Shown here: positions 37,163-53,432 of the stretch, in pieces
Layout of the letters: each line of letters starts with the position of its first letter
How positions within the stretch are numbered: position 1 is the first letter of the stretch
Origin: Firmicutes bacterium TM09-10
GTDB taxonomy: Bacteria; Bacillota; Clostridia; Lachnospirales; Lachnospiraceae
Length of the DNA: 64,000 bases
Direction of reading: 5' to 3'
Assembly: GCA_003481005.1 (NCBI GenBank)
Contig: QUKC01000017.1
Coordinates: 10,829-74,828 of the forward strand
Program-made: the position numbers and the translations under genes
Notes under the pieces: model-generated
The model's input: only the letters and a program-made list of their open reading frames with translations
Database searches by the model: none
Told to the model about the DNA's origin: nothing

Positions 37163-37191
37163 GACGGCTCGGCCGAAGCATGGAGGATGAC

Positions 37192-38871
37192 GTGAATATA
37201 CAGAAAAATCAGATTTTTACAGTGAAAATTACAGATATGGGAACTGACGGAGAGGGCATCGGACATCTGGAGGATTCCGGTGCCCTTTCAGGCAATGGTT
37301 ATACGCTGTTTGTCAAGGACGCGGTTCTGGGCGATACGGTGCGTGCAAAAGTCGTAAAACCGAAAAAGGGATATGCCTTTGCGCGTCTGGAAGAAGTGCT
37401 GGAACCGTCGCCCGACCGCGTGGAGCCGGTCTGTGCGTATGCGAGACAGTGTGGCGGCTGTCAGCTGCAGGCGGTTTCTTATGAAAAGCAGCTCGCCTTT
37501 AAGGACCGCAAGGTCAAAAACAACCTGATCCGGATCGGCGGCTTTGCCCCGGATTTTGTAGAGGAAATTATGGAAGCTCCGATCGGGATGGAGCATCCGT
37601 TCCATTATCGCAACAAGGCACAGTTTCCGGTCGGAACGGACAAAAATGGTCGTTTGATTGCGGGCTTTTATGCCGGACGGACACACACGATTATAGAAAA
37701 CAGGGACTGTGCGCTCGGCGTTGCGGAAAACAAAATCGTTTTGGATATCGTGCTGGATTTTTGTACGGAAAAGAAAATTCCAGCATACGATGAAACGACA
37801 GGAAAGGGATTGCTGCGCCATGTCCTGATCCGTAAAGGTTTTTCAACAGGACAGATTATGGTTTGCCTGATTCTCAACGGCAGTTCGTTTGCGGCAGAGC
37901 AGGAGCTTGCGGACAGGCTGTTTGAAAAGGTGCCCGGAATGACCAGCTTTTCGGTCAATTCCAATACAGAGCGGACAAATGTGATTATGGGCAGTAAAAC
38001 CCGGACGATCCGCGGAAAAGACCGCATTGAGGACACGATCGGCGGGCTTGTTTTCACAATTTCGCCCCAGTCCTTTTATCAGGTCAATCCGGTTCAGACG
38101 GAAAATATTTACAGTCAGGCGCTTTCTTATGCAGGACTGACCGGAAATGAGACAGTCTGGGATCTTTACTGTGGAATCGGCACGATTTCCCTGTTCCTGG
38201 CGCGCCAGGCGAAGCAGGTCTACGGCGTGGAAATCGTCCCGCAGGCAATCGATGATGCGCGCCAGAATGCAGTGCGCAACGGCATCGACAATGCGAAATT
38301 TTATGTCGGAAAAGCGGAGGAGGTGCTGCCGCACTTATACGAAACAGAAGGAATTTTTGCGGACGTTATCGTTGTTGATCCTCCGCGCAAGGGCTGTGAC
38401 GAAGAGTGCCTCAATACCATTTTAAAAATGCGCCCGAAACGCCTGGTTTACGTCAGCTGCGATTCCGCAACGCTCGCCCGCGACTTAAAATATCTCTGCA
38501 GCCAGGGCTATGAGTTAAAATGCGGCAGGGCGTTTGACAATTTCCCGATGGGGGGACATGTGGAGACGGTAGTCTTGCTTTCCAAGGGTGAGGTCGACTC
38601 GAAAAAGATTCGGGTTGAGTTCTCTTTGGAAGATATGGATATGTCCGAATTTCAGGATGGGGCAACCTATCCGCAGATCAAGGAGTATGTGTTGGAGCAT
38701 ACCGGGTTAAAGGTGTCCAACCTCTATATCTCACAGATTAAACGAAAATGTGGGATTGGGGTTGGTAAGAACTATAATCTGCCGAAGTCCGAGGATTCCA
38801 GACAGCCCCAGTGTCCGCCGGAAAAAGAGAAAGCAATCCGAGAAGCATTCAAATATTTTGGGATGATCTAA
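37192..38871 (+). CDS. rlmD: 23S rRNA uracil-5-methyltransferase (RlmD/RlmCD type) with mobile-element C-terminal tail
   Basis: A 559-aa enzyme: N-terminal TRAM domain (FTVKITDMGTDGEGIGHL), 4Fe-4S cysteines in CAYARQCGGCQLQAVSY, and an S-adenosylmethionine methyltransferase core (TVWDLYCGIGTISLFLA, VVDPPRKGCDEECLN with the catalytic Cys in YVSCDSATLARDL). The usual length is about 455-460; here the core ends at VETVVLLS (residue ~457-464) and about 95 further residues follow (ATYPQIKEYVLEHTGLKVSN, SEDSRQPQCPPEKEKAIREA). I recognise this tail from Clostridial integrative elements inserted in this gene. The GTG at 37192 is chosen because GGAGG precedes it. Confidence 0.93.
   Translation: MNIQKNQIFTVKITDMGTDGEGIGHLEDSGALSGNGYTLFVKDAVLGDTVRAKVVKPKKGYAFARLEEVLEPSPDRVEPVCAYARQCGGCQLQAVSYEKQLAFKDRKVKNNLIRIGGFAPDFVEEIMEAPIGMEHPFHYRNKAQFPVGTDKNGRLIAGFYAGRTHTIIENRDCALGVAENKIVLDIVLDFCTEKKIPAYDETTGKGLLRHVLIRKGFSTGQIMVCLILNGSSFAAEQELADRLFEKVPGMTSFSVNSNTERTNVIMGSKTRTIRGKDRIEDTIGGLVFTISPQSFYQVNPVQTENIYSQALSYAGLTGNETVWDLYCGIGTISLFLARQAKQVYGVEIVPQAIDDARQNAVRNGIDNAKFYVGKAEEVLPHLYETEGIFADVIVVDPPRKGCDEECLNTILKMRPKRLVYVSCDSATLARDLKYLCSQGYELKCGRAFDNFPMGGHVETVVLLSKGEVDSKKIRVEFSLEDMDMSEFQDGATYPQIKEYVLEHTGLKVSNLYISQIKRKCGIGVGKNYNLPKSEDSRQPQCPPEKEKAIREAFKYFGMI
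38556..38582. other. Putative attL at the rlmD 3' end
   Basis: CATGTGGAGACGGTAGTCTT encodes HVETVV. The segment TGT-S-GAGAC-R-GT is shared with the end of the recombinase gene (about 53212-53223), differing at two of twelve positions. The RlmD tail begins immediately after. Short shared cores are typical for large serine recombinases. Confidence 0.5.
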
Positions 38872-38895
38872 CATCCAGCAAAGTGGAGGTTTCTT

Positions 38896-39141
38896 ATGGA
38901 TAGGTTGATTTCTTGTGAGTTCAACATGGATAATGCCTGTGTGGAACTGAAATTCTTAGATGGCAGTATGATTGCTATTGATACAATAGCCGTGGAGAAT
39001 GAGGTTTCCGACAATCTGTATCAGCGGTCAGAGCTGGACTATCTGATTTACAATGACCCGGTTGGATATGCAGACTTGATCTTGAACGGTGATCCCGAAA
39101 TTTATCTAAAAACTGTAACTGAATGTAAACCCTTAGATTAA
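38896..39141 (+). CDS. DUF6061-type small protein
   Basis: An 81-aa acidic protein (CEFNMDNACVELKFLDGSMI, YQRSELDYLIYNDPVGYADL) behind GGAGG. Proteins with this pattern occur right after the modified rlmD in Clostridial mobile elements. Function unknown. A strong terminator follows. Confidence 0.75.
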   Translation: MDRLISCEFNMDNACVELKFLDGSMIAIDTIAVENEVSDNLYQRSELDYLIYNDPVGYADLILNGDPEIYLKTVTECKPLD

Positions 39142-39147
39142 AACTCA

Positions 39148-39183
39148 GCCCTCTGCCTTTTCCTTGGCAGAGGGCCGTTTTTT
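39148..39183 (+). terminator. Strong terminator after DUF6061 gene
   Basis: A perfect 10-bp stem GCCCTCTGCC/GGCAGAGGGC (39148-39157, 39166-39175) followed by CG and six T. Confidence 0.92.
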
Positions 39184-39192
39184 GCTTAACAG

Positions 39193-41838
39193 TTATTGAG
39201 CATCCCTTAATTGCTCTACAACACTGCATTTCGCTGCGTTGTCATACATCATGCAGGGGATCAGCCACCCCAGCAGAAGAAATACCGGAATTGTCAGCAG
39301 GACAGGCAGAATGGTGAATCGATACTCAAAGAACCAGAACATACTTCCCAGCATTTTTCCTGCAAGAGGTCCCACCGCCAGCGACAGAATAAAGGCCGCC
39401 GATACGGAGGACATTGCGTAAAACAATCCCTCGTAGATCAGCATGGTTTTGAGCTGCCGGTTCGTCATTCCTACAGCCTGAAGCACAGCAAATTCACGGC
39501 GGCGGGAAAGAATACTGGTCATCATGGCGTTGAAGAAATTTAAGAGTCCCACCAGCCCGATGATAGCACAGAGGATACCACCTACCAGAAGGAACATCTG
39601 CCGGAACTGAGCAAACTCAGAGCGAGCCGTGGCCTTGCTTTCATACATCAAGGGTGAAAACTCACCGGCAGTGAGCTTCGATAGATATTGCTCTGCTTCG
39701 GCCTCGTCTGCGTCGTCTGCTGTGTCGAACAGGTAGAGCATCGGAATGGCCGCACCGCCGCTGTCCCTCTGTGCGGTATCCACAGACAAAACTGTCTCAT
39801 ATCCAATACCGCCATAACGATAACTCATGGAATACGGAAGCTCTACCAAGGCGCAGACCGTGTACTCTACATCTCTGGCTCCATACAGTTTTTCCTGAAA
39901 GTACTCCTCCGGTGTATCTTCGGTGCGGAGTTCCCCGGTGCGGCTGTCGATATATTTCACATCGTCCGCATAGGTGGCGGTGATCGTGTCTCCCACCTTG
40001 GGGTAGTATTCAGGATTGGGCAGATTACCGTAGTCATCTAAGGAAACCGCAATGGCAATAGCGTTATTGTTTGGCTCCAGCATAGGAGAAATATCTCCGT
40101 CGAACACTTGCAGCTTGTCAAACAGGCTGTTATCCAGAGCCTCGATTCTGGTATCTCCCATCACCATATCGCCCCGGTGCTCCATGCGGCTCATATGGCT
40201 GTCCAACTGCTCAGCACTTTCGTACCTTGCATAGTCCTGCCGCAGAGCATCCTCCGTCATCCAAAGATATACGGGTTTTCGCACAGCATATCCCGTGCCG
40301 GAAAGACTGGACTTTGTGTTTGCTGCGATCTCTTCGATCTGTTCCGGCGTGATGAATTCATCTGCCGGGTTGTAACGGAAATAGTCGGGCGTGCTGACGA
40401 TAAAATCGGCGCAGGTCATGAAGGATACATACTTCTCCATGCTGAAGCCGCCCACAAAGGCACACAGTGCATTGAACAGCGTCACCGACAGTGCCAGAGA
40501 CACCACCACCAGCACCGTCTTTTTTTTGTTTCGTCCCAGATTGGCAAAGGCCATCTGATGGAGCTTCGCTCCCCGGGTGCTGCGCTGTTTTTTCTTGGTC
40601 TGCATCGCATCTGTATATTTGGTAGCCTCCACCGGAGAAACCCTGGCTGCCATTTTCCCGGGCTTGGAGCAGGACAAAAGCACCGTCAGCAGGGCAAACA
40701 GCACGGAGCCAACAAAGATCACAGGCGAAGTGCTGATGGTGGTGATGCCTGCATCCAACTGGGTGGAGCGCAAGACAACAGGCACCAGAACAGCGCCAAT
40801 GCCATAGCCCAACAGCAGCCCTGCCGGAATGCCGATCAGACAAAGCAGAAGTGCCTGCTGGCGAATGATGCGTTTGAGCTGCCGGGGCGTTGTGCCAATG
40901 GTTTTCAGAAGCCCGTAAAACCGGATATCCCCCGCAACAGAGATCTGGAAAATGTTATAGATGATAAGATACCCGGTGAAAATCACCAGCAGCAAAAAAG
41001 CTGCTATGGCGATCACAAGTTCCGGATCGAGCTGCGACTCCAACTGGGATGAGGTATATCCCCAGTTGACGCCGATCCGGACGCTGTTGGGATCGGTATA
41101 GCTGTCCCATGTGTAGCCGAGATCGGTATCCACCTGCTCCATCTGCCCTTGAATGTTTGTACTGGAAGCCATCATGACATTCAGGTCAGTGCGGAAGGGC
41201 TGTAAACCTGTTTTCACTGCCTGCGCTTCGATATCATCTGCGTAATCACGGCTGATGTTGATGTAATGAACAGGCATTAGTTCATCATAGTCCCAATAGC
41301 CCACCAGCGTAAAGGTATCTGTTACAGTAAAGGCGGTTTGATCCTTGTCCGTGATGGAATAGGAAATCGTGACCTCTGCGCCCAGTTCCGGCGTCACGCC
41401 AAGCAGCTGCAACGCTGCCGTATCCATGGTCACCTCTTTGCCGCTTTCGGGCATCCGTCCGGTAGTAGGGGTGGCATAGCTCCATTTGGTGCAGTTGGCA
41501 TCCATGTAGCTGATCTCTGCCGGCGTTTTGGAAAAGACACCATCCGCAGTGATGCCGATCACCTTCCGTGCCCCCGCAGACTTTACCTTCGGGTGGGCGG
41601 CGATACGTTCCGCCTGCTCGGGGGAAACATCCTTAAAGGTGCCGTGTGCATAGCCGCCTACCTGCCGAAACTGGTAGGTTTCATAGCTGGCGTTCAACGA
41701 CAAGACAATGGTGAACATGGACGTAAATAGCAGCGTTGTTAGCGCAATGGCAAAAATGGCGATCAGATTGCGGCGGCGGTTCGCATAAAGAGATTTTAAG
41801 CTGAGCTTCCGAATACATTTTCTGTTTTTGACATTCAT
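39193..41838 (-). CDS. FtsX/MacB-type ABC transporter permease
   Basis: An 881-aa permease with an N-terminal helix (~26-48), a large extracellular domain, three-helix FtsX module (~285-415; VIAIAAFLLLVIFTGYLIIY), a second N-terminal-like helix (~440-465), another extracellular domain and a final FtsX module (~755-865; LLVGGILCAIIGLVGLLNFF). GGAGG lies eight bases before the ATG at 41838. With the next ATPase it forms a type VII ABC system, commonly exporting or removing antimicrobial peptides and lipids rather than acting as a classical transporter. Confidence 0.93.
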   Translation of the reverse strand: MNVKNRKCIRKLSLKSLYANRRRNLIAIFAIALTTLLFTSMFTIVLSLNASYETYQFRQVGGYAHGTFKDVSPEQAERIAAHPKVKSAGARKVIGITADGVFSKTPAEISYMDANCTKWSYATPTTGRMPESGKEVTMDTAALQLLGVTPELGAEVTISYSITDKDQTAFTVTDTFTLVGYWDYDELMPVHYINISRDYADDIEAQAVKTGLQPFRTDLNVMMASSTNIQGQMEQVDTDLGYTWDSYTDPNSVRIGVNWGYTSSQLESQLDPELVIAIAAFLLLVIFTGYLIIYNIFQISVAGDIRFYGLLKTIGTTPRQLKRIIRQQALLLCLIGIPAGLLLGYGIGAVLVPVVLRSTQLDAGITTISTSPVIFVGSVLFALLTVLLSCSKPGKMAARVSPVEATKYTDAMQTKKKQRSTRGAKLHQMAFANLGRNKKKTVLVVVSLALSVTLFNALCAFVGGFSMEKYVSFMTCADFIVSTPDYFRYNPADEFITPEQIEEIAANTKSSLSGTGYAVRKPVYLWMTEDALRQDYARYESAEQLDSHMSRMEHRGDMVMGDTRIEALDNSLFDKLQVFDGDISPMLEPNNNAIAIAVSLDDYGNLPNPEYYPKVGDTITATYADDVKYIDSRTGELRTEDTPEEYFQEKLYGARDVEYTVCALVELPYSMSYRYGGIGYETVLSVDTAQRDSGGAAIPMLYLFDTADDADEAEAEQYLSKLTAGEFSPLMYESKATARSEFAQFRQMFLLVGGILCAIIGLVGLLNFFNAMMTSILSRRREFAVLQAVGMTNRQLKTMLIYEGLFYAMSSVSAAFILSLAVGPLAGKMLGSMFWFFEYRFTILPVLLTIPVFLLLGWLIPCMMYDNAAKCSVVEQLRDAQ

Positions 41839-41853
41839 CGTAGCCACCTCCCG

Positions 41854-42525
41854 TTAGTTCTGGGAGACGATCCGACCATCTTCGATACGGATAATGCGGT
41901 CTGCCATCTGCGCAATTTCTTCGTTGTGAGTGATCATTACGATTGTCTGGGCGAACTTTTGACTGGTGACTTTCAAAAGGCTCAATACATCCTGGCTGGT
42001 TTTGGAATCCAGATTGCCGGTGGGTTCATCTGCCAGAATGATAGCGGGTGCTGCCGCCAGCGCACGGGCAATGGCTACTCGCTGCTGTTGACCGCCTGAG
42101 AGCTGATTGGGCAGCGCATCCAGACGATCATCCAGCCCAAGTGTCTGTACAATCTGCTGTACGAAATCCTTGTTGACCTTGCCACCGTCCAGCTCAATGG
42201 GTAGAACGATATTTTCATACACATTCAGCACCGGAACAAGATTATATGCTTGGAACACAAAGCCGATTTTCCTGCGGCGGAAGATGGTCAGCGCTTCCTC
42301 CTTCAGGGAGAAAATATCCTGTCCGTCCACCATGACCGTGCCACTTGTAGGGCGATCCAGCCCGCCCAGCATGTGCAGCAGCGTGGATTTGCCGGAGCCG
42401 GATGTGCCGACAATTGCAACAAATTCGCCCTTCTTTACACTTAAATCAACTCCATCCAACGCATGAACTGCGTTATTGCCGGAGCCATAAATCTTTTTCA
42501 GGTCTTTTGCCTGTAAAACATCCAT
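41854..42525 (-). CDS. ABC transporter ATPase (MacB/LolD type)
   Basis: A 223-aa ATPase with [20 protein letters not shown] (Walker A), Q-loop in [18 protein letters not shown], signature [18 protein letters not shown], Walker [13 protein letters not shown] and H-loop [15 protein letters not shown]. The start at 42525 has GGAGG before it; an in-frame upstream extension reaches into the hairpin region and is rejected. The permease starts 15 bases downstream. Confidence 0.95.
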
Positions 42526-42550
42526 AAATGAGTACCTCCATGAAAAAATC

Positions 42551-42589
42551 TGTATGTATGAAAGGAAATCATCCTTTGATACATACAGA
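42551..42589 (-). promoter_or_regulatory. Long palindrome between kinase and ABC genes
   Basis: CTGTATGTAT (42551-42560) pairs perfectly with ATACATACAG (42580-42589), and the inner GAAAGGA/TCCTTTG pair nearly perfectly, giving a 17-bp stem. On the minus strand the hairpin is followed by ATTTTTTC and then the GGAGG site of the ATPase, so it could be a terminator/attenuator or an operator for the adjacent response regulator. Confidence 0.6.
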
Positions 42590-42660
42590 TTATCGCATAG
42601 GAATCTTTCCACATTCTTTCCGGCGGAAAATGAAATCTAACAGTTTTGATAGAATTGTTG

Positions 42661-43560
42661 TTATTTCGGCAGAAATATGGAAAACGTACTTCCTTTTCCC
42701 GGAACGGAAGCAATCTTGATATAACCTCCCTCGCCGGATATGATCTGTCGGGCAAGGTATAAGCCGATGCCGACCCCTTCCTGCTCCTGAACCGCCTTTG
42801 AGCGGTAAAAGCGAGCAAATATCTTCGCTTGCTCAGTTTCCGGTATGCCTGAACCGGTATCCGATATATCGATCCTTGCAAACATTTCGTAACTTACGGC
42901 AGAAATCCTGATTGTGCCATGCTCTGTATATTTGATGGCATTGTCTACGATATTCGCCAGCGCTTCCGCTGTCCATTTGAAGTCGAATACAGCAAAAGCA
43001 TCGGTATCCTGCAGTCGCAAAGACAATCCTTTTTCAGAAGCCTTGGCGGCATATTGTTCTACTACGCTTTCAAGCAGCGGCTGTAGCGCTGCTTGCTGAG
43101 GGGTGAGTGAAATGATCCCATTTTCCAGTCTGGAAAGCTTTACGAGAGAATCGATCAAAAATCGCAGCTTTTCCGATTGTTTGTACAGCGCCTCCACATT
43201 TGCCTTCGCCGATGCAGGCAGAGTTTCCTCCTTCAGAAGCTCGCTGTATAACAGCAGGTTTGCAATCGGCGTTTTTGTCTGGTGCGAGATGTCCGCAATC
43301 AAGGTTTTGATTTTGTCTTTTTCCTGCGCTACATTTCGAGAAGATGCTTCTGCTGCGGAAAGATAGTGTGCAAACTTTGTTTCCAAAGCAGACAGCCGGC
43401 TTTCGTCAAAATTGGTTTCAGAAAAGGAGCCGGTCATGGCAGCGTCCAGCATCCTTTCGATTTCTTCCATCGTTTTTCTGGTCTTTCTCCGCTCCCATAA
43501 CACAATAGCTGCCGCCGCCAGAAAACACAGCAGTATGATCACAATACCGGTTTTATTCAT
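42661..43560 (-). CDS. Sensor histidine kinase of the ABC transporter locus
   Basis: A 299-aa kinase with a single N-terminal helix (~4-20) and a very short extracellular part, typical of intramembrane-type kinases that sense through an ABC transporter. HisKA holds LIADISHQTKTPIANLLLYS (phospho-His) and the ATPase domain has NIVDNAIKYTEHGT, ISDTGSGIPE, FARFYRSK and GVGIGLYLARQI. Its start overlaps the response regulator's end by eight bases. Confidence 0.93.
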   Translation of the reverse strand: MNKTGIVIILLCFLAAAAIVLWERRKTRKTMEEIERMLDAAMTGSFSETNFDESRLSALETKFAHYLSAAEASSRNVAQEKDKIKTLIADISHQTKTPIANLLLYSELLKEETLPASAKANVEALYKQSEKLRFLIDSLVKLSRLENGIISLTPQQAALQPLLESVVEQYAAKASEKGLSLRLQDTDAFAVFDFKWTAEALANIVDNAIKYTEHGTIRISAVSYEMFARIDISDTGSGIPETEQAKIFARFYRSKAVQEQEGVGIGLYLARQIISGEGGYIKIASVPGKGSTFSIFLPK

Positions 43561-44230
43561 CTTTTGTCACCCAGCTATAACCGATTCCATAGACGGTTTT
43601 AATGTATTTCTGTGCACCAAGCTTATCCCTCAGACGCTTGATCGTAACAGACAAAGCATTTTTATCCACATATTCTGCGCCATCTGTCCAGATCCGGTCG
43701 ACAAGGTCTCCACGGGTCATGGTTCGACCACGATTTTCAACAAGCAGACGCAGTAATTTTTGTTCTGTTTTGCTCAATTCCACTTTTGAATCTCCCACAT
43801 AAAAGGTCATAGCCTCAAAGTCAAAGTGAAATAGATCCATATGGAACGGCGCATTTTTATGGTTTGACGCTTGCTTTCGCAGTTGGGTATTCACCCTTGC
43901 CCGCAAAACCGAAAGAGAAAAGGGCTTGGTAATGTAATCATCAGCGCCCCTCTCCAGTCCGTCTACGATGTCCAGATCGGTGTCATTGGCAGTCAGCAGA
44001 ATAACAGGAATATAGGGTGTGTTTTCCTTGACCTCCCGGAGCAGCTCGAGCCCGCTGCCATCCGGCAGATTGATATCCAGCAGGATCAGGGATACACTCC
44101 CGCAAAGCAATTGTTCTCTTGCCGCTTTTAGATCATGGCAGGATATAATCTGACGGCCATCTGCTTTCAGCGCTTTGCATAAGCCTTGATTCAAACCGAT
44201 ATCATCTTCAATAATCAATAATTGTTCCAT
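43553..44230 (-). CDS. OmpR-family response regulator of the ABC transporter locus
   Basis: A 225-aa regulator: LLIIEDDIGLNQGLCKAL, phospho-Asp in LILLDINLPDGSGLEL, Lys in DYITKPFSLSVLRARV; winged helix with SKTEQKLLRLLVENRGRTMT and NALSVTIKRLRDKLG. AAGGAG precedes the ATG at 44230. It likely controls the adjacent ABC genes in response to a peptide or antibiotic. Confidence 0.94.
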   Translation of the reverse strand: MEQLLIIEDDIGLNQGLCKALKADGRQIISCHDLKAAREQLLCGSVSLILLDINLPDGSGLELLREVKENTPYIPVILLTANDTDLDIVDGLERGADDYITKPFSLSVLRARVNTQLRKQASNHKNAPFHMDLFHFDFEAMTFYVGDSKVELSKTEQKLLRLLVENRGRTMTRGDLVDRIWTDGAEYVDKNALSVTIKRLRDKLGAQKYIKTVYGIGYSWVTKDE

Positions 44231-44246
44231 GTATCTCACTCCTTCG

Positions 44247-45419
44247 TTATTCAAATGCCACCATCGTTTCCTTGGGCAATTTTTCGTTCTCACAGTTCAG
44301 AAGATAGGCTACGGCCTTGTTCGCAAAGCGGTTGGTTTTTATCGTATCCCAATCGGCAAGGCGAATAATCTCTGCCGTACCATTCTCAAAATCAAATGAA
44401 ATCTCGCCCCATTCGCCGTCGCAGTCTGCCTGATATTCGTAGATTGCGGCGGCGATTTTCTTTTTTCGCTTGATCTTGGATTTCTGTTTTAGCCGGACTG
44501 CATGGATTGCGCCCTCGGCAACCAACAATTCCGTCAACTTGTCCACTGCTTTTCGGTAGGCTCGTTCTGCACCGCTGGCTGTACTGCCCTCAAACATAAC
44601 CGCCAGTTCTTCAAAGGTGGGGCGGTTCTTCCATGAGCCAACTCGCCCACAGGTCATGCAAATTGCTAACCGTTTTTCGAGCAAGGTCTGTTCCCGGTAA
44701 TTCAGTTTCTCAAATGCCCGCTGCACCTTTTCTGCCTGTATGCCGTTCCAGAGGATATCGGTATAGTTCCAGCTATCGTCAAGGGCTACATCCTCGCCTG
44801 TTTCTTCGCCGTCCTCGTCTGTGACATAGAAAGGCTGCTGATTGCGGATTCCACGGACAACTTTCAGATATTCTTCCGCAAGGGCAAGATCGCAGTTGTA
44901 TTTCTTGGAAAATTCGTTGACCGCATCCTTGGTATTGTGGTACAGCCAAGCCATTGACCGCACCATTTTGTAATTGGTCAGAGAGGACACCGACCATTTT
45001 TCTTCGCCCATGCGAAAACGGAGCATAGCATCCCGGATGAACGGGAAAATGTATGTAGCATACTCTGCACCCTTGGCAAGGTCATAGTCCATCAGCTTTT
45101 GGAGCATTTGCTCCCGGCAGGAGAGCTTTATATCTATAAATCGGTCTGTGTCATACAGATCGCCGCCATCCACACCGAGAAAGTCTTTGATGCGCTTGTT
45201 AAGCTGCGGCTCGTAGTGGTGTAGGAAGAATGAGAAATATATCAAATTCTTTTCCTGCAAGGCAGACAGGATATATTCGTTCAGATTGCCCACCGCTGGA
45301 GGCTCCGGTTCCAGTTGAAAGATGCGCTCTGCCGCATAAGGAATGATGCCGTCACCGTGCGGATTGACAGCGTGTTTTGGTATGTATCCGGTCATGTCCC
45401 ATGAAAAATCACTCAGCAT
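44247..45419 (-). CDS. Sigma-70-like/HTH accessory protein of mobile elements
   Basis: A 390-aa protein with a region (~230-310) resembling sigma factor region 4: YREQTLLEKRLAICMTCGRV, PTFEELAVMFEGSTASGAER, AYRKAVDKLTELLV. The rest has no recognised domain. Proteins of this kind occur in Clostridial mobilisable elements. GGGAGG precedes the ATG. It could regulate element genes. Confidence 0.65.
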   Translation of the reverse strand: MLSDFSWDMTGYIPKHAVNPHGDGIIPYAAERIFQLEPEPPAVGNLNEYILSALQEKNLIYFSFFLHHYEPQLNKRIKDFLGVDGGDLYDTDRFIDIKLSCREQMLQKLMDYDLAKGAEYATYIFPFIRDAMLRFRMGEEKWSVSSLTNYKMVRSMAWLYHNTKDAVNEFSKKYNCDLALAEEYLKVVRGIRNQQPFYVTDEDGEETGEDVALDDSWNYTDILWNGIQAEKVQRAFEKLNYREQTLLEKRLAICMTCGRVGSWKNRPTFEELAVMFEGSTASGAERAYRKAVDKLTELLVAEGAIHAVRLKQKSKIKRKKKIAAAIYEYQADCDGEWGEISFDFENGTAEIIRLADWDTIKTNRFANKAVAYLLNCENEKLPKETMVAFE

Positions 45420-45453
45420 AGCGCACCTCCCTTCTCATTTCTATAAGAATCCC

Positions 45454-46080
45454 TTAAGACATTCTTTCATAAAAAGCATGAAGTATTTCTGCCAATTCCT
45501 GCGGTGATTCAATATTAACTTCATGTCCGGCACCAATAATCGTTTTTAATTCCACGTTCTTAAGCAATTCTGCCAATTCAATAGAAGCATTTTTATTCGC
45601 AGTATCTTTCTCGCCATATAACAATAGTGTAGGGCATGATATTTTGTGCAGAGAGTTGTTAAAGTCCAACTCCATCATGGTTTCGCATAGAAGTAAGAAA
45701 TCAGCTTTTCTAAATCCCATTTGTTGAAACATGGATTTAGGCATAAATCTAAAGAGAAGATTTTGAAATTTCAGAAGCTTCTTGGGCATTTTATATTGTG
45801 TGGCGATAAGCACCAAGGAGCGAACTTTTTTCGGATATTGTATAGCATAGTTCAGAGCTAATACGCCCCCAAGCGATAAACCGCACAAATCAATAGGCTC
45901 ATCATATTGATTGCAGTAATCTGAAAATGCAGCATATAGATTATCATAGGTCACTTCTTTGCTATGAACTAAATCAGGAAGATTCGGACACAAGCTGTAA
46001 TCAGTAGTTTGCAAAATATCTATTGTTTTTGTCCAACTGTCAGATGTTTGTCCTAATCCATGCACATATATTTGTTTCAT
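45454..46080 (-). CDS. Alpha/beta hydrolase
   Basis: A 208-aa hydrolase. Oxyanion region VHGLGQTSDSWTKTI at the start; nucleophile elbow LCGLSLGGVLALNYA (Ser), acid in LLYGEKDTANK and His in IGAGHEVNIESPQEL. A lipase, esterase or peptide hydrolase; substrate unknown. It appears to be cargo within the element. Confidence 0.92.
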   Translation of the reverse strand: MKQIYVHGLGQTSDSWTKTIDILQTTDYSLCPNLPDLVHSKEVTYDNLYAAFSDYCNQYDEPIDLCGLSLGGVLALNYAIQYPKKVRSLVLIATQYKMPKKLLKFQNLLFRFMPKSMFQQMGFRKADFLLLCETMMELDFNNSLHKISCPTLLLYGEKDTANKNASIELAELLKNVELKTIIGAGHEVNIESPQELAEILHAFYERMS

Positions 46081-46092
46081 ATTGTTCCCCCA

Positions 46093-47196
46093 CTAAATAT
46101 GTATCTTAGCTTCTGCAAGCAAAGCAGCCTGTTCCATTTCTTTTTCATAAGCTCCTTTGGCATAAGCAACATCACTTTTTGCCCGGAGTTCTTTATCTTT
46201 TGCCAGTTTCTTCATGACCTCCGCAAGGTCAGCGTCCAGAGTACCACGCTTTACATAGCGATTTATGGTGTTCAGCCTCTTTTCATATATCTGGATAATC
46301 GGATGATCGTCTGCAAGCTCTCGCTGTTCTCTGCCTTTTAGATTGCCGATTTGCCGGCAAGTGCGGTGCAGCTTGTCCCCCGGTGCATAGCCGCCGCAGT
46401 ATTTGGTGTGCCTTGCGTTGGTGGTGAGGAACCACTTGCCGCAGATTTTGCATTTTTTCGGGGCATGACCAACACATAAGCCCTCAAAAAGATCAGACCG
46501 GAACATCCCTACAAAGGATACATAGTGCATCCGCTTGACCAGCTTCGCAACTTTTTCGCCGGGACGGATGACGGATACATACTGAACGGAATTGTTCAGG
46601 GTAGACATCCAGGCATTGCCTTCCGTGATGGAAAACTCCGGCGGGAAATAGCTGCCGAACATTTTTGCAAAACCCTCTGCGGTGCGGTCTGCTTCGTTGC
46701 CGTCTGTTTTTTCTGCAAAATCAAGCATGGCCGTTTGGTATTCCCCAAGGGAGTATGCCAGATGCCCGAAAACTGCGGTATAGCGTTGGAGCATCATCGC
46801 ATCGGTAAAGTTCTGGATTTCTTCAAATTGCAAAGAATTGGTTGCGGCTTTTATGGCAAACTCCACATATTTCAGCGCATTGTCCACAGTAAAGACTTTT
46901 TCAATCCGTTCTCTGTGCTTTGAGATATTCATATAGGAGAACGGCGGTGTTTGACTGAGAATATCGAGCATCGTCAGAGCAGCTTCCTTTGCAATAGGAC
47001 AGAGTGCAGAAGCATCCTGTCCGGCGTTTAATATTCCAAGCAGCAGATTGATTTTCTCGCATTGCTCGTTTATTTTTGCAATGGTATTCACAGGAACATT
47101 CAGTGCATCACAGGCAAGCGTACCGACAGGAAATGCTTTGCTCTCATATATGACCGTATCCTGCCAGAAATCCAATGTCATCAATTCTTGATTCAT
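46093..47196 (-). CDS. DUF6076-type protein with zinc ribbon
   Basis: A 367-aa protein. The C-terminal part has paired cysteines KKCKICGKWFLTTNARHTKY and C-GG...HRTCRQIG (residues ~260-295), a likely zinc ribbon, then a helical tail. The N-terminal ~250 residues are helical with no known fold. GGAGG precedes the ATG at 47196. Such proteins recur in Clostridial mobile elements near replication genes; function unknown. Confidence 0.65.
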   Translation of the reverse strand: MNQELMTLDFWQDTVIYESKAFPVGTLACDALNVPVNTIAKINEQCEKINLLLGILNAGQDASALCPIAKEAALTMLDILSQTPPFSYMNISKHRERIEKVFTVDNALKYVEFAIKAATNSLQFEEIQNFTDAMMLQRYTAVFGHLAYSLGEYQTAMLDFAEKTDGNEADRTAEGFAKMFGSYFPPEFSITEGNAWMSTLNNSVQYVSVIRPGEKVAKLVKRMHYVSFVGMFRSDLFEGLCVGHAPKKCKICGKWFLTTNARHTKYCGGYAPGDKLHRTCRQIGNLKGREQRELADDHPIIQIYEKRLNTINRYVKRGTLDADLAEVMKKLAKDKELRAKSDVAYAKGAYEKEMEQAALLAEAKIHI

Positions 47197-47208
47197 GCTT
47201 GCCCTCCT

Positions 47209-47325
47209 GTCCTGTTTTTTCATTTTTCTAATTATATCATGTAAATGTGAAGAAATCTACGTCCTCAGATAAGTTGTCCTGTTTTTTGAAACAGGATTGT
47301 CCTGTCATTAGCCTGTTTTTTGAAA
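47209..47325. repeat. Direct repeats in the divergent promoter region
   Basis: CCTGTTTTTTGAAA occurs exactly at 47278-47291 and 47312-47325, and a shorter relative (TCCTGTTTTTT) near 47209. They could be regulator sites or replication iterons next to the primase. A hairpin, GCGAAGCACC/GGTGCTTCG, lies at about 47353-47388. Confidence 0.4.
47231..47236 (-). promoter_or_regulatory. Extended -10 promoter for leftward genes
   Basis: On the minus strand, TGA-TATAAT forms an extended -10 about 35 bases before the zinc-ribbon gene. No good -35 is evident. Confidence 0.4.
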
Positions 47326-47418
47326 AATCCGTCATAACCATAATAGAAGGAGCGAAGCACCTGCCAATCACGGCGGGTGCTTCGTGCTTTCCAGAATATT
47401 ATGAACGGAGGGTTTTCT

Positions 47419-48039
47419 ATGACAATCTATGAAACCATCAAGGCGGCAATCAGCGTCAAGCAAGCCGCCGAACATTACGGGCTGAAAGTGAGCCACAACG
47501 GCATGGCTTGCTGCCCGTTCCACAACGACAGGCATCCGAGCTTGAAGCTGAATGAGGACTATTTTTTCTGCTTCGGCTGCGGAGCCAAAGGGGATGTGAT
47601 CGACCTTGTGGCAAGGCTGTTCAATCTGAGCAGTTATGAAGCAGCGCAAAAGCTGGCTTTGGACTTCGGGCTTGACCCGAAACCGCCCACTGCCGCAGCT
47701 ATGGTCAAGCCGAAGCGTCCCTATATCCGTCAGTTCCGGGAGGATGAAATGCTGTGCTTCCGGGTGCTGACGGATTATTTGCATCTGTTGGAAGATTGGA
47801 AAGTGCGCTATGCTCCCAAGACACCGGAAGATGCTCTGGATGACCGTTTTGTGGAAGCCTGCCAGATGCACTGCCATATCGAATATATGGCAGATGTGCT
47901 GACGGTGGGTGATCTGGAAGAACGGGTGGCATTGGTGGACAAGCTGATGCAGGACGGCAAAATTGCTTTTCTGCAAGAGTATACCGCACGAAAGAAAAAG
48001 GAGGTGGCGCACCATGGCGAAGAACCGGAAAACGCCTGA
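47419..48039 (+). CDS. CHC2 zinc-finger DNA primase-like protein
   Basis: A 206-aa protein with the N-terminal zinc-binding domain of DnaG-type primases: AISVKQAAEHYGLKVSHNGM, CCPFHNDRHPSLKLN, FFCFGCGAKGDVIDLVARL (CHC2 cysteines and His). It lacks the catalytic TOPRIM core. GGAGG precedes the ATG at 47419. It overlaps the next gene by 26 bases and likely supplies primer recognition for element replication. Confidence 0.9.
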   Translation: MTIYETIKAAISVKQAAEHYGLKVSHNGMACCPFHNDRHPSLKLNEDYFFCFGCGAKGDVIDLVARLFNLSSYEAAQKLALDFGLDPKPPTAAAMVKPKRPYIRQFREDEMLCFRVLTDYLHLLEDWKVRYAPKTPEDALDDRFVEACQMHCHIEYMADVLTVGDLEERVALVDKLMQDGKIAFLQEYTARKKKEVAHHGEEPENA

Positions 48040-49405
48040 TATGAACTTGCCCATGTGGTTTGACGGGCAGAACATCAACGAAGCTCTGTTTTGTGAAGAA
48101 TTTCTGCATGAGCGCAGGATCATCTTCGCAAACGGAGCTTTTTTCACGCCCGATGGTCGAGTGACGGACGATCTTCCTCTGCGTGGGGAGATTTACGACA
48201 AGCTGAAATTCTGTGCCGTAAACAATATCCCCCGGAAGATCACCAACATTCTGGAAGTGCTGAAACTGGAAGCGCAAGTGCCGGACTTTCCACCGGAGCA
48301 GGATCGGATTCATTTGTCCAACGGTACGCTGCTATTGAACGGCACATTTACCGAGGGCAGACCGGCTATCGTGCGGAGCCGTTTGCCGGTTGCTTACAAT
48401 CCCGATGCTACTGCGCCGGTGATCTGGCTGAACTTTCTGGATGGGTTGCTTTACGCCGAGGACATTCCAACTTTGCAGGAGTTTATCGGCTATTGCCTGA
48501 TTCCCTCCAACAAGGGGCAGCGCATGATGGTGATTAAAGGCAACGGCGGCGAGGGTAAATCTCAAATCGGTGCGGTACTGTCTACCATCTTCGGCACGAA
48601 TATGAAAGACGGCAGCATCGGCAAGATTTCTGAAAACCGCTTCGCCCGTGCCGATTTGGAACACATTCTCCTGTGCGTGGATGATGATATGCGGATGGAA
48701 GCTCTGCGCCAGACCAACTATGTAAAATCCATTGTCACCGCACAGGGCAAGATGGATTTGGAACGCAAAGGCAAGCAGAGTTATCAGGGTTGGATGTTCG
48801 CCCGATTGCTGGCATTCAGCAACGGTGATCTGCAAGCCTTGTATGACCGCAGTGACGGATTTTATCGCAGACAGCTTGTGCTGACCACCAAGGAAAAGCC
48901 AGTGGACAGAGCTGACGATCCCGACCTTGCGGAGAAGATGAAAGCTGAAGCCGAGGGTATCTTCCTGTGGGCATTTGAAGGCTTACAGCGGCTTGTTGCC
49001 AACAACTTTAAGTTTACGGAGAGTGAGCGTATCCGGGAAAACCGGGAAGCGGTCAAGCGTGACAACAACAATGTCTTTGATTTCATGGATTCCGAGGGAT
49101 ACATCCAGCGTAAAGCGGATGCGTCCATCAGTTCCAAGGATTTCTATGAAATCTACCGGATGTGGTGCGAAGAAAATTCCCTTGCACCGCTGAAAGCCCG
49201 CAGCTTCAGCGACGCCATGATTGCCAATGCCGGGAGATTCAATCTGGAACATTGCAACAATATCACCAACTCTGCCGGACGGCGGGTTTGGGGATTCATG
49301 GGAGTGGAAGCCATTGCACGACCTCATATAAATGGGTTTTACGGAGATTCGCCGTGTACGTACGTACCGGAGGACATTCCAGAGGAATGGCGGCAGGTCG
49401 AGTAA
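48014..49405 (+). CDS. P4/D5-type phage/plasmid helicase-primase
   Basis: A 463-aa superfamily 3 helicase. Walker A is MVIKGNGGEGKSQIGAVLST (~residue 175), followed by Walker B LLCVDDDMRME, sensor region LAFSNGDLQALYDRSDGFYR and a winged-helix C-terminus (SSKDFYEIYRMWCEEN). It should unwind element DNA during replication of the mobilised or circular form, working with the CHC2 protein. AAGGAGG precedes the start. Confidence 0.9.
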   Translation: MAKNRKTPDMNLPMWFDGQNINEALFCEEFLHERRIIFANGAFFTPDGRVTDDLPLRGEIYDKLKFCAVNNIPRKITNILEVLKLEAQVPDFPPEQDRIHLSNGTLLLNGTFTEGRPAIVRSRLPVAYNPDATAPVIWLNFLDGLLYAEDIPTLQEFIGYCLIPSNKGQRMMVIKGNGGEGKSQIGAVLSTIFGTNMKDGSIGKISENRFARADLEHILLCVDDDMRMEALRQTNYVKSIVTAQGKMDLERKGKQSYQGWMFARLLAFSNGDLQALYDRSDGFYRRQLVLTTKEKPVDRADDPDLAEKMKAEAEGIFLWAFEGLQRLVANNFKFTESERIRENREAVKRDNNNVFDFMDSEGYIQRKADASISSKDFYEIYRMWCEENSLAPLKARSFSDAMIANAGRFNLEHCNNITNSAGRRVWGFMGVEAIARPHINGFYGDSPCTYVPEDIPEEWRQVE

Positions 49406-49456
49406 ATCCCATTGCTGGTACGTATGTACGCAGCAAAAGAGCGTGAAACGCTCGTT

Positions 49457-49530
49457 ATAGAAACAGCACACATCCTCTCGTTCGGGCTGTTTCTATGTCC
49501 ACAGGCTTTTGAAAAAGTGTCTGTGGACAT
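49457..49530. repeat. Two adjacent perfect inverted repeats
   Basis: ATAGAAACAG (49457-49466) pairs with 49487-49496, and ATGTCCACAG (49495-49504) pairs with 49521-49530, both with 10 perfect pairs; the arms share two bases. They occupy the gap between the helicase and relaxase genes and could fold in single-stranded DNA. Confidence 0.6.
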
Positions 49531-49696
49531 CGGCTGCAAGAGGAAGTTGACACAGAACAGCTTCATGCAGACGGGGCTGACCATGGGAAAAGGCGCAGAC
49601 ATTTTCGCCTTGGTCAGCAGAGGTCACCGCAGTGACCGCATTCCCCCTCGGGAGAGCCCTCGGAGAGCCCACGGCACTTTGCAGCCAGTATGGATG

Positions 49697-49724
49697 AAAG
49701 TGTCATAGTGGGTTATTACACTTT
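49697..49724 (+). other. oriT: Origin of transfer (oriT), MobV type
   Basis: AAAGTGT (49697-49703) and ACACTTT (49718-49724) are perfect inverted arms around CATAGTGGGTTATT. The centre TAGTGGG/TTAT resembles the pMV158-family nick site TAGTGTG/TTAT. It lies about 60 bases before the MobV relaxase start. Confidence 0.75.
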
Positions 49725-49783
49725 GAAAAAGTGCCTCTCCGTAGTTCTCCGCTGTCTGCAAATCTCAAAGAAAGGAAACGCCA

Positions 49784-51073
49784 ATGGCAAGAAACGATGG
49801 AATAGACCGTACCGTAGCCAGAAATCAGGACTTGGGAAACCCGGCAGATGTGGCAAAGGTACAGGAACACAATGAGCGTGAAAAGGACAGCTACAGCAAT
49901 CAGGACATCGTGCCGGAACGCACTTCTCTGAACGTCCATTTCAAAGCACCCACGGACGATTATGTAAAAATGTTTGAGCAGATGGAACAAGACGGCGTGA
50001 TCTCCACCAGAGGTCTGAAACCGGATGCCGTCAAATACGGTGAGTTGGTATTTGATGTGAATTCCGCTTATTTCTACAATCATGGCGGCTATGAATTTGC
50101 GAAACAGTTTTATGCCGATGCCTACAAAGCTGCTGCGGAGATCGTAGGTGGTGAGCAGTATATCCTCTCCGCTGTGATGCACGCCGATGAGCGCAACCGA
50201 GCAATGTCCGAAGCTTTGGGCGAAGATGTGTACCACTACCACCTTCATGTGGTTTATATCCCGGTGGTGGAAAAGCAGATACTTTGGTCGAAGCGATGCA
50301 AGGATGAAGACCTCCGGGGAACCGTTAAGGAGGTCATCACACAGGTCAGCCGCAGTAAGAAATGGGAGTCCAAGCCGGTGCTTGACGAGGACGGTAATCC
50401 AATGTTGAACGCAAGAGGAAAAAAGATTTTGAGGTCATCCTACAGTGTGTTGCAGGATGACTTTTTTCATTTCATGCGAGTTGCCGGATATACCGATCTG
50501 GAGCGTGGAGAACGTGGAAGCACCGAGGAACATCTGACTGTGACCCAGTTCAAGGTGCAGGCAGAACAGCAGCGGCTGGAAACTGTGGCCGGGCAGGTAG
50601 CACAGGCAGAGCAGAGTTTGGAGGATGCCAAAGCTGCCACAGCAAAACAGAAAAAGAAACTGGAATCTTTGCAAAAGGAAACCAAGGCGGCAAAGACCAT
50701 TGCGCTGACAGTGCAGGACATTGAAGCAATGGGCAAAAAAGCCACATTCGGAAACAATATCACGCTGACACCGGATGAATGCGACACACTCAAACGCTAT
50801 GCGGTCAATGGCATTATCGCCAATGTTGACAACAAGCGTCTGAAAGAAAAACTGGCTTCCGCAGAAAAGACGGTTTCCATCTGGAAGCAGCGGTATGAAG
50901 TGGTAAACGAAAAATATATGGAACTCAAACAGAAAGCCCAACCCTTTCTGGATGCACTGGAAATCGCATCCGAGAAGGTTCAGGCTTTTATCAATTCTAT
51001 CCTCATCAGAGGAAAGCAAACACAGGAACACGAACACCCTGCCCGGAAGCGTGGACAGGATATGGAACTTTGA
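49784..51073 (+). CDS. MobV-family relaxase (Mob/Pre)
   Basis: A 429-aa relaxase nicking oriT to start conjugative mobilisation. The N-terminal domain (~1-210) includes RTSLNVHFKAPTDDYVKMFE and the metal-binding HxH in DVYHYHLHVVYIPVV; a long coiled coil follows (VAGQVAQAEQSLEDAKAATA). It needs a helper conjugation system in the same cell, because no type IV secretion genes were seen nearby. AAAGGAA precedes the ATG. Confidence 0.93.
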   Translation: MARNDGIDRTVARNQDLGNPADVAKVQEHNEREKDSYSNQDIVPERTSLNVHFKAPTDDYVKMFEQMEQDGVISTRGLKPDAVKYGELVFDVNSAYFYNHGGYEFAKQFYADAYKAAAEIVGGEQYILSAVMHADERNRAMSEALGEDVYHYHLHVVYIPVVEKQILWSKRCKDEDLRGTVKEVITQVSRSKKWESKPVLDEDGNPMLNARGKKILRSSYSVLQDDFFHFMRVAGYTDLERGERGSTEEHLTVTQFKVQAEQQRLETVAGQVAQAEQSLEDAKAATAKQKKKLESLQKETKAAKTIALTVQDIEAMGKKATFGNNITLTPDECDTLKRYAVNGIIANVDNKRLKEKLASAEKTVSIWKQRYEVVNEKYMELKQKAQPFLDALEIASEKVQAFINSILIRGKQTQEHEHPARKRGQDMEL

Positions 51074-51088
51074 TGGAGGAATCGCCTA

Positions 51089-51274
51089 TTGAAGAAATAT
51101 TATGAGGAAGCGAAATATAATGCGGCATTTGACCGCTGTGTGGATGTTATGAGCCAGATGCTCCAGAAATATGGACATCAGGTTTTGGATAAATTGGAAC
51201 AGGACGCACCGCAGGGAGTGGAGCATTCCGAGGAAAGTAATCAAGCGCAGCTTCTGACGGATAAGGCTGCGTAA
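51089..51274 (+). CDS. Conserved small protein of mobilisable elements (DUF6103-like)
   Basis: A 61-aa helical protein starting with TTG (51089) behind TGGAGG: KKYYEEAKYNAAFDRCVDVM, then QKYGHQVLDKLEQDA. Such short proteins often sit between mob and recombinase genes. Function unknown. Confidence 0.65.
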   Translation: MKKYYEEAKYNAAFDRCVDVMSQMLQKYGHQVLDKLEQDAPQGVEHSEESNQAQLLTDKAA

Positions 51275-51286
51275 AATTTGCAATTT

Positions 51287-51335
51287 ACACGTTGCGTATT
51301 CGCTATGGCTATGCTATAATGATTACGCAACGTGT
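51287..51335 (+). promoter_or_regulatory. Operator-promoter with perfect 12-bp inverted arms
   Basis: ACACGTTGCGTA (51287-51298) and TACGCAACGTGT (51324-51335) are exact inverted repeats. Between and overlapping them is a promoter: TTGCGT (51292-51297), 17 bp, TATAAT (51315-51320). Binding of a repressor to the arms would block transcription of the HTH and recombinase genes. Confidence 0.85.
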
Positions 51336-51363
51336 ATTTTTGGCTTTTGTGGAGAAAAGACGG

Positions 51364-51594
51364 ATGGATTGTAAAAACAGAATTATAAAGTTGCGTGAAA
51401 GCACAGGACTGAATCGGAAAGATTTTTGCAAGCTCGTCCATATTCCTTACCGGACTATGACTGAATGGGAATTGGACAACCGCCATGCACCGGATTATGT
51501 GCTGTGGCTTTTGGAGTATTATATCCGCAACGAGGGACTTATGGTAAAAGGAAGGAATGAGGGAGGTGGAGATTCTGAAAAAGAAACAACTTAA
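51364..51594 (+). CDS. Small HTH regulator
   Basis: A 76-aa protein with an XRE-like helix-turn-helix: IIKLRESTGLNRKDFCKLVH, IPYRTMTEWELDNRHAPDYV, LWLLEYYIRNEG. GGAG precedes the ATG at 51364; an earlier start lies inside the operator. It probably binds the inverted arms just upstream and controls its own gene and the recombinase, whose start it overlaps. Confidence 0.75.
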   Translation: MDCKNRIIKLRESTGLNRKDFCKLVHIPYRTMTEWELDNRHAPDYVLWLLEYYIRNEGLMVKGRNEGGGDSEKETT

Positions 51595-53260
51595 ATGCTA
51601 TCTTTATACAAGAGTGTCCACCTCGATGCAGGTTGACGGATACAGCTTGGATGCCCAGCGTGACAAGCTGCGGAAGTATGCGGCATACGAGGATATGATC
51701 GTTGCCGGGGAGTATTCTGACGAGGGCTTTTCCGGAAAGAACATTCAAGGGCGGCAGGAGTTTCAACGGATGCTGAATGACATCCAGGACGGCAAAGATG
51801 ATGTTTCTTATGTGTTGGTCTTTAAGCTGTCCCGATTTGGCAGAAATGCAGCGGACGTTCTGAACTCTTTGCAACTCATGCAGGATTTCGGTGTCAATCT
51901 GATCTGCGTGGAGGATGGCATTGACAGCTCCAAGGATGCAGGAAAGCTGATGATCTCTGTGCTGTCTGCGGTGGCAGAGATTGAGCGAGAAAATATCCGC
52001 ACACAGACAATGGCAGGACGGGAGCAAAAGGCTCGTGAAGGCAAATGGAACGGCGGTTTCGCTCCCTATGGATACAAACTGGAAAACGGAAACCTTGTCA
52101 TTGCAGAGGATGAAGTGGAAGTTATCCGAGTAATCTATGATCGTTATATTCATACAAACGAGGGTGTTGCAGGAGTTGCAAAATATCTGAACCGCAATGG
52201 TTATGTAAAGAAACTAAGACAGAATAATACCATTCCGGGATTTTCAAGAGATTTTGTGAAAAATGTATTGTACAATCCTGTTTATATGGGAAAGATTGCT
52301 TACGGCAGACGAAGAACTGAAAAGAAACAGGGTACAAGAAACGAGATGCACGTGGTTGAGCAGTCGGAGTTTCCGGTTTATGAAGGACAGCACGAAGCTA
52401 TCATTTCTGAAGAGGATTGGTATCTGGCACAGGAAAAGCGCAAGATCAATTCCTTTAAGCGGGAAAAGGTCAACAATCCAGACCACGCACACATCCTGTC
52501 CGGTATCTTGAAATGCCCATGCTGCGGCAAGAGTATGTACGGCAATATCGCCAAGGCACACAGCAAGGACAAGAAAACACGGTATTATTACTACTGCAAA
52601 AATACGGTTACACCCACAGGGCATGAGTGTAGCTTCCGGCTCAATATCGAGCAGACGGAAATCAATAAATTTGTGGCAAAGATCATTTCCGCTATGGTCA
52701 ATAATCCCCGATTTGTAGAAGCAATTCAAGCGAAAATCGGAACGGCGGTTGATACAGAGGATATGGAAAAGCAGATCGCCGTTCTGCAAGGACAGCTAAA
52801 GCAAGCCTTTGGAACGAAAAGCCGCTTGGAGCGTCAGATGGATACCTTGGACATCAACGATGCCCACTATGACAGAAAAATTTTGGATTTGCAGCGCCGA
52901 TATGATGAACAGTATGATACGATAGAGGAAATCGAAGTTCAGATTGGCGAATTGCAAAGTCAGATACGCAGCATCCAGCAGGAGAAAATCTCCGGCGATA
53001 ACATTTATCGGCTCTTACTGGCATTTGATGAAGTCTACCATTCCGCAACGGAAGCAGAACAGAAAGAGTTTATGAAAGCCTTTATCGAGCGAATTGAGAT
53101 GTTCCCGGAAAAGAGAAAAGACGGAAGCTGGATAAAGAAGATTGTATTCAATTTCCCTGTGCCTATTGATGGCGAGGAAGTGAAAGAACTTCCCTTGGAA
53201 ACTGAAACAACTGTCGAGACAGTGATAATGATGACGTATTGTGGTGATAAGGGGAAATAG
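51557..53260 (+). CDS. Large serine recombinase
   Basis: A 567-aa site-specific recombinase for integration and excision. The resolvase domain has catalytic Ser21 in CYLYTRVSTSMQVDGYSLDA and KLSRFGRNAADVLNSLQ with the catalytic Args. Then a recombinase domain (~170-270) and a zinc ribbon (CPCCGKSMYGN with C-KN...HEC, ~315-355), then a coiled coil (~395-475). It ends in TTVETVIMMTYCGDKGK; VETV matches the RlmD attachment motif in frame, suggesting the last codons come from the chromosome. ATG at 51557 has only a tightly spaced site; a downstream CTG at 51575 behind GGGAGG is an alternative. Confidence 0.92.
   Translation: MREVEILKKKQLKCYLYTRVSTSMQVDGYSLDAQRDKLRKYAAYEDMIVAGEYSDEGFSGKNIQGRQEFQRMLNDIQDGKDDVSYVLVFKLSRFGRNAADVLNSLQLMQDFGVNLICVEDGIDSSKDAGKLMISVLSAVAEIERENIRTQTMAGREQKAREGKWNGGFAPYGYKLENGNLVIAEDEVEVIRVIYDRYIHTNEGVAGVAKYLNRNGYVKKLRQNNTIPGFSRDFVKNVLYNPVYMGKIAYGRRRTEKKQGTRNEMHVVEQSEFPVYEGQHEAIISEEDWYLAQEKRKINSFKREKVNNPDHAHILSGILKCPCCGKSMYGNIAKAHSKDKKTRYYYYCKNTVTPTGHECSFRLNIEQTEINKFVAKIISAMVNNPRFVEAIQAKIGTAVDTEDMEKQIAVLQGQLKQAFGTKSRLERQMDTLDINDAHYDRKILDLQRRYDEQYDTIEEIEVQIGELQSQIRSIQQEKISGDNIYRLLLAFDEVYHSATEAEQKEFMKAFIERIEMFPEKRKDGSWIKKIVFNFPVPIDGEEVKELPLETETTVETVIMMTYCGDKGK
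53207..53234. other. Putative attR at the recombinase 3' end
   Basis: CTGTCGAGACAGTGATAATG encodes TVETVIM, matching the rlmD segment at about 38559-38570 (TGT-S-GAGAC-R-GT). If correct, excision would restore an rlmD ending VETVIMMTYCGDKGK. Confidence 0.5.
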
Positions 53261-53306
53261 GGTTGTATAACTACAAGATATTGTGGTTTGAAACTGAAAA
53301 ATGAAC

Positions 53307-53349
53307 AAAAATCGAGGCGGAAATGGACGGTTTTCGACCTCGATTTTTT
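53307..53349 (+). terminator. Terminator after the recombinase
   Basis: AAAATCGAGG pairs with CCTCGATTTT, with GGAAA/TTTTC extending the stem inside, followed by TT. Confidence 0.8.
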
Positions 53350-53432
53350 GAGCTTTTGACAGATGACATCGGAGAAAGGAAGGGAGAAAATAGATGACAA
53401 TGGAGTAACTTGTGAATTTATAAGCAAATTAT

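Follow-up and report, generated by a model that had tools for sequence, protein, structure and literature searches.

The window analysed in this study is a 64,000-nucleotide stretch of DNA from Firmicutes bacterium TM09-10 (Lachnospiraceae; assembly GCA_003481005.1, contig QUKC01000017.1, positions 10,829 to 74,828 of the forward strand). It carries two plus-strand genes whose 3' ends raise the same question, namely where these ends come from. The gene rlmD (37180-38871, 563 aa) encodes a 23S rRNA (uracil-C5) methyltransferase with a long additional C-terminal tail, and a gene for a large serine recombinase (51557-53260, 567 aa) ends in frame in VETV-IMMTYCGDKGK, that is, in VETVIMMTYCGDKGK. 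The original prediction held that an element is inserted in rlmD with a coding attachment site at both ends. This was borne out by in-phase GAG codons at position 462 of rlmD and position 554 of the recombinase gene. We conclude that the locus very probably contains an integrative mobilizable element (IME), whose serine recombinase crosses a site in its own gene with a site at the 3' end of rlmD at the dinucleotide GA in GTnGA and thereby swaps the ends of both genes in frame.

The two ends of the element were placed by comparison with relatives. RlmD models and solved relatives aligned only to about residues 462-473 of the protein, and the remainder constitutes the tail; TIGR00479 scored 443.6 bits over residues 37-462, and the best solved relatives aligned to residues 466-473. 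The host part of rlmD comprises codons 1-461 (37180-38562). The left crossover core (attL) is the GA forming bases 1-2 of codon 462 (38563-38564), where similarity to relatives starts within a few bases and for which the phase was computed. It is followed by the element-coded C-terminal tail of about 101 residues, TVVLLSKGEVDSKK...FGMI (38565-38868). At the right end, the body of the recombinase occupies codons 1-553 (51557-53215), matches PF00239, PF07508 and PF13408, and has relatives up to 99% identical. The right core (attR), bases 1-2 of codon 554 (53216-53217), precedes the displaced 3' end of rlmD, consisting of TVIMMTYCGDKGK and a stop codon (53218-53260). It was observed that ten right ends from nine related loci were alike through GTnGA (53213-53217) and diverged beyond it, and that the match of two phage-collection records to the element stopped at 53217 and 53218. 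The left-end GTGGAGACGG and the right-end GTCGAGACAG have GAGAC in common. Since the right-end similarity was kept only through GTnGA, the core was taken as GA at both ends. Both GAG codons, which begin at 38563 and 53216, lie in phase 0 and are separated by 14,653 bp. Among the 120 recombinase homologues listed (of 7,988 passing), 114 have E or D, encoded by a codon beginning with GA, at the joint; 112 of them were anchored by pattern, and two more, both with E, were recovered by alignment from the eight that the pattern had missed.

These placements sharpened several details of the original prediction. The crossover had been assigned to the VETV codons, which was correct as to location; the exact site is finer, a GA core within GAGAC. 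Because this core is finer than VETV, TVVLLS is also supplied by the element, and the foreign tail that had been put at about 95 residues amounts to about 101. The count of 11 residues behind VETV in the recombinase (IMMTYCGDKGK) was accurate. The span given for the element, 37192-53260, does contain it and also takes in the host part of rlmD, the element proper being 38563-53216.

In the proposed mechanism, the large serine recombinase would recombine the site in its own gene with the site close to the 3' terminus of rlmD, with the crossover at GA in GTnGA. Upon integration, RlmD would gain the element-coded tail, whose first residues, TVVLL, would take the place of the methyltransferase's final conserved stretch, and the recombinase would gain the short RlmD end. 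Since both sites are in the same codon phase, this exchange would proceed in frame. Upon excision, RlmD would regain TVIMMTYCGDKGK, and the recombinase would become a protein of about 655 aa with the tail. We infer from the sequence that the copy in the window can be excised, that RlmD would stay active, and that the tail would serve the recombinase in the circle.

The element-free form of RlmD predicted in this way was found among database proteins. The same-core set consisted of 45 RlmDs with at least 96% identity that reach the joint, out of 120 listed proteins from a search with the RlmD core. Six of them end in ETVIMMTYCGDKG(K/E), i.e., VETVIMMTYCGDKG(K/E), which is the ending predicted for an empty site; four records show the predicted VETVIMMTYCGDKGK exactly, and two have a final E instead. 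Other short ends were present in four proteins, and the remaining 35 carried long tails in 27 versions, which formed 13 clusters at 80% identity and included the exact window tail in P0263 and P0276. One of the four other short-ended proteins, P0279, already differs upstream of the joint and, judging from its sequence, may be from another species or a chimera. The high core identity suggests a single species, which would then host many elements at this site. Neither empty sites with the same tail nor element ends lying elsewhere, the outcomes named beforehand as contradicting the insertion, were seen. Named genomes were surveyed through the best 80 of 181 RlmD loci, the closest RlmD being 79% identical and located in a Lachnospiraceae metagenome bin. 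In this survey, 47 loci had a short end, 15 an intact family tail, three a damaged tail and nine another longer end, and six were cut by the contig border. Tail remnants lay directly behind rlmD in two of the 47 short-ended loci.

Three other elements have start and end points that coincide to within a few bases with those of the window element. The first (L191+L192, 13.5 kb) follows a different uracil-methyltransferase-like gene with 34.8% identity to the window RlmD core, and locus L052 comes from the same genome. The second (L198+L126, 15.3 kb) is located on a single viral contig and shows 93-96% identity over the aligned parts; the left flank of L198 is not an RlmD reading frame. The third (L197+L127, 13.5 kb) lies in tandem behind a different recombinase on another viral contig. 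The cargo stretch with ATP-binding cassette (ABC) transporter and two-component genes had an aligned match in L198 and none in L191 and L197. Exact terminal repeats, a sign of circular contigs, were absent from the 13 loci inspected for them. Since three other elements are bounded alike and the predicted ending does occur on same-core RlmDs, the assigned ends are beyond chance.

Tails were also present on recombinases. Among the 120 matches listed, the window tail (residues 471-563) recurred at 99-100% identity in 110 RlmDs and 10 recombinases; 7,973 of 7,989 scored candidates exceeded the threshold, scoring being applied only to candidates that shared most words. In viral contigs, 11 of 23 tail loci were on open reading frames (ORFs) with a recombinase N-terminus, one (L205) with a broken tail frame. 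Recombinases that are 96-99% identical to that of the window continue into short RlmD-like ends, into tails, or into parts of unrelated genes, which were named from sequence and Pfam accessions as an acetyltransferase, a carbamoyl-phosphate-synthase-like protein and an rRNA methyltransferase. By ending, the 112 anchored recombinases comprised 21 with short ends, 24 with tails and 67 others, the latter including intermediate and damaged tails; these are cluster representatives with no length favoured, and some of the reading frames may not be genes. At the level of sequence, the varied endings fit insertion at other coding sites with GTnGA.

A fusion at the same joint to what seems to be one and the same acetyltransferase was noted in two recombinase subfamilies (P0135, P0137, P0148-P0149, P0152-P0154, P0156 and P0162; P0215, P0219 and P0236), pointing to either a preferred second site or a different kind of tail. 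A probe of viral contigs with the acetyltransferase part of one such fusion gave no confirmed relative. A second type of ending on RlmDs and recombinases, about 30 residues long with a DMEDYYRIKD-like motif, was observed in L001, L007, L008 and L019 and in the recombinases P0177, L181 and L187, and may be the left terminus of a different family of elements.

The tail itself behaves as a domain. Mean column identity across 29 tails was 53%. The ratio of nonsynonymous to synonymous substitution rates (dN/dS), calculated by a simple count method from the 42 of 496 pairs that were usable (dS 0.1-1.5), had a median of 0.10 in the tail family; 41 of the 42 values were below 0.5 and the highest was 0.53. 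These results indicated purifying selection. In PHROGs, 28 of the 29 tail members matched phrog_27283, a family of unknown function. In Pfam, the window tail had no match, and other members gave weak scattered matches (best E 0.011); the best E of a PDB sequence search with the tail was 0.025, which is not convincing. Structure predictions suggested a small helical domain preceded by a flexible linker at the joint, the window tail being modelled with modest confidence (predicted local distance difference test, pLDDT, 68), and a Foldseek search with this model returned no match (best E 2.4). A conserved domain under purifying selection that is joined in frame may serve the excised recombinase. 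As a separate observation, the PDB chain 5xj1_A, a solved methyltransferase (SP_1029), terminates in HVETVALLSKLDVD, which resembles the start of the tail of L203 (HIETVALLSKLDVD); by sequence, it may represent an occupied rumA-type gene that was shortened for crystallization.

Several observations weigh against the proposed exchange or its details. Six of the 120 listed recombinases break before the joint (P0145, P0151, P0173, P0175, P0188 and P0202). The element-free form is known solely at the level of predicted proteins and not as a DNA locus with its surroundings, and proteins from metagenomes may be chimeras. The predicted swap of C-termini was upheld in so far as recombinases with an RlmD-type tail exist; the window recombinase fused to its own GEVDSKK tail, which would be the circle junction, was not among the homologues read. 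The fusions that were read joined other recombinases to the window tail, the window recombinase type to other tails, or other recombinases to other tails, as tandem arrays would yield. The structural model of a tailed recombinase, from the relative L123, was poor (pLDDT 59.8; predicted template modelling score 0.30). Finally, the right flank (53261-64000) has a G+C content of 39.8%, vs 50.5% left of the element and 48.0% within it, and about 150 bp behind the TYCGDKxK end (53214-53372), with a terminator-like stretch, recur behind some other RlmD-family genes. In four genomes, L060 (11444-11591), L171, L172 and L173, this segment recurs at 72-78% identity after genes of the RlmD family, including paralogues. 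The last three belong to six further places with a match to the flank, of which the other three (L174, L175 and L176) are not behind an RlmD-family gene.

The low G+C of the flank and the recurring 150 bp imply that the end restored by excision may not be ancestral. TYCGDKGK could be an older acquired end, since the DNA behind it resembles DNA behind other RlmD-family genes. It would then be the left end of an older, rightward island rather than the original 3' end of rlmD, and excision would lead back to an earlier occupied state. We consider this possible, though rather unlikely; it is compatible with the end exchange and concerns the ancestral state only. The genes after the L060 match look element-like on reading, whereas those behind the match in L172 and L173 look chromosomal. 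Moreover, TYCGDKGK-type sequences are the commonest short end behind the window core (six of ten), and no second recombinase was seen among ORFs of at least 110 aa up to 64 kb. The idea that TYCGDKGK forms the left border of a second element was dropped as the principal explanation, since same-core RlmDs end in this way, and was retained as an alternative for the ancestral state. The DNA pattern of the TYCGDKxK end had no match in viral contigs. Within the right flank are ORFs for a helix-turn-helix regulator and an ABC-F-like protein, together with other ABC transporter-like ORFs; the flank may be a second island using this hotspot.

It is very improbable that the left end, with the tail and the DUF6061 gene behind it, and the right end, with the recombinase, were brought together from two elements that accreted in tandem and then decayed. 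Such tandem arrays do occur (the contig of L197/L127 and L199), and different tails follow recombinases of 96-99% identity. However, in the three other elements described above, a left tail of this type is combined with a recombinase of this type at distances of 13.5, 13.5 and 15.3 kb. A native origin of the tail, as a variable C-terminal domain of Lachnospiraceae RlmD, with a chance likeness of the recombinase motif, would agree with the wide spread of the tail (7,973 of 7,989 scored candidates; intact family tails in 15 of the best 80 of 181 RlmD loci), but is practically untenable: it is already contradicted by same-core RlmDs without a tail, and 47 of those 80 loci end short, the same core occurs with 13 long-tail clusters, near-identical tails are shared by divergent RlmDs and by recombinases, and the DNA similarity of the relatives starts and stops at both joints.

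The in-frame exchange between rlmD and the recombinase gene places the ends of a widespread mobile-element group to within a base or two. It also explains the C-terminal tails on many database RlmDs, with tail versus short end serving as a simple marker of occupancy. Beyond this, we tentatively propose, as a somewhat doubtful extension, that the tail of about 100 residues belongs to the recombinase as a portable C-terminal domain, which integration severs and transfers to RlmD. In the circle, the recombinase would be tailed and suited to integration; in the integrated state, it would be tailless, with the tail set apart on RlmD. If so, the attachment joint would act as an inbuilt switch of direction and at the same time leave RlmD functional, and tailed RlmDs would mark present or past occupancy. 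Should the tail act on the recombinase, this would be a natural way for direction to depend on the protein end of the recombinase. A conserved tail domain joined in frame was not mentioned in the literature searched, most of it covered as listings, which is a weak negative.

The end exchange itself is already published for streptococcal integrative and conjugative elements (ICEs) and for CTn5, and the window element is another case; the comparisons below draw on excerpts of the cited papers. Streptococcal ICEs in rumA/rlmD have a single serine integrase and exchange 3' ends reciprocally (PMC4701971). The window element shares with them the target gene, the single serine integrase, and a pair of repeats divided between rumA and the integrase gene, with both C-termini changed. 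The placement of one attachment site in rlmD and the other within the integrase gene fits this group of reciprocal exchange, as does the direct repeat, GAGAC with core GA, which falls within the 2-21 bp of PMC4701971. In contrast to the streptococcal exchange, which is reported to change the reading frame of both proteins, that of the window keeps the frame on both sides, a difference of detail and not of mechanism. The streptococcal systems are ICEs, whereas the window element has a conserved-domain tail and a relaxase without a recognised conjugation pore. In Clostridioides difficile, CTn5 moved into rumA, directly downstream of CTn7, and rumA together with the element ORF CD1844A yields a hybrid RumA; a faint polymerase chain reaction band of intact rumA persists (PMC4320837). 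The fusion of the target gene to an element-borne ORF is common to CTn5 and the window element, although CTn5 is conjugative and of the Tn1549 family (PMC4701971), unlike the mobilizable element described here. IMEs in rumA, including IME_SpnAP200_rumA, likewise are mobilizable and combine a serine integrase with an internal rumA site (PMC5704250, PMC5357655); they are streptococcal, and the passages describe no shared tail domain. The 3' end of rumA is an established site (PMC11578063). In the Mx8 prophage, attP lies inside the integrase gene and the changed integrase of the integrated form is reportedly less active (per PMC4701971). Integration thus alters the C-terminus of the integrase in both systems, but Mx8 is a phage with a tyrosine integrase.

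The gene content of the element agrees with an IME that has a serine integrase. A recombinase of the large serine family lies at one end, and a MobV-type relaxase is encoded at 49784-51073 on the plus strand (PF01076, 1.6e-32; the NCBIfam MobV model NF041497 scored 50.9 bits, under its cut-off of 100). Among the 14 element ORFs scanned, none matched a conjugation pore in Pfam (nine were also compared with NCBIfam); ORFs below 60 aa were unlisted, and no dedicated conjugation models were run. An Rfam scan of 34-64 kb gave no match. Phage and plasmid records held no near-identical copies of the element, only partial matches in six and one records, respectively. From the left end, the tail is followed by a DUF6061 protein on the plus strand (38896-39141; PF19537, 3.8e-41). 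The cargo lies on the minus strand (39193-42612 and 42661-44293) and consists of an FtsX-type ABC permease (39193-41847; PF02687), an ABC ATPase (41854-42612; PF00005), a histidine kinase (42661-43560; PF00512/PF02518) and a response regulator (43553-44293; PF00072/PF00486). Also on the minus strand are a 390-aa protein without a match in the Pfam and NCBIfam scans (44247-45419), an alpha/beta hydrolase (45454-46080; PF00561) and a DUF6076 protein (46093-47223; PF19553, 1.2e-56). The hydrolase gene is in a stretch unaligned in the examined relatives, element positions 6916-7601 having no alignment in L198, L126, L127, L191 and L197. Between these genes and the relaxase, a CHC2 zinc-finger primase (47377-48039; PF01807) and a P4-type primase/helicase (47963-49405; TIGR01613, 124.4 bits) are encoded on the plus strand.

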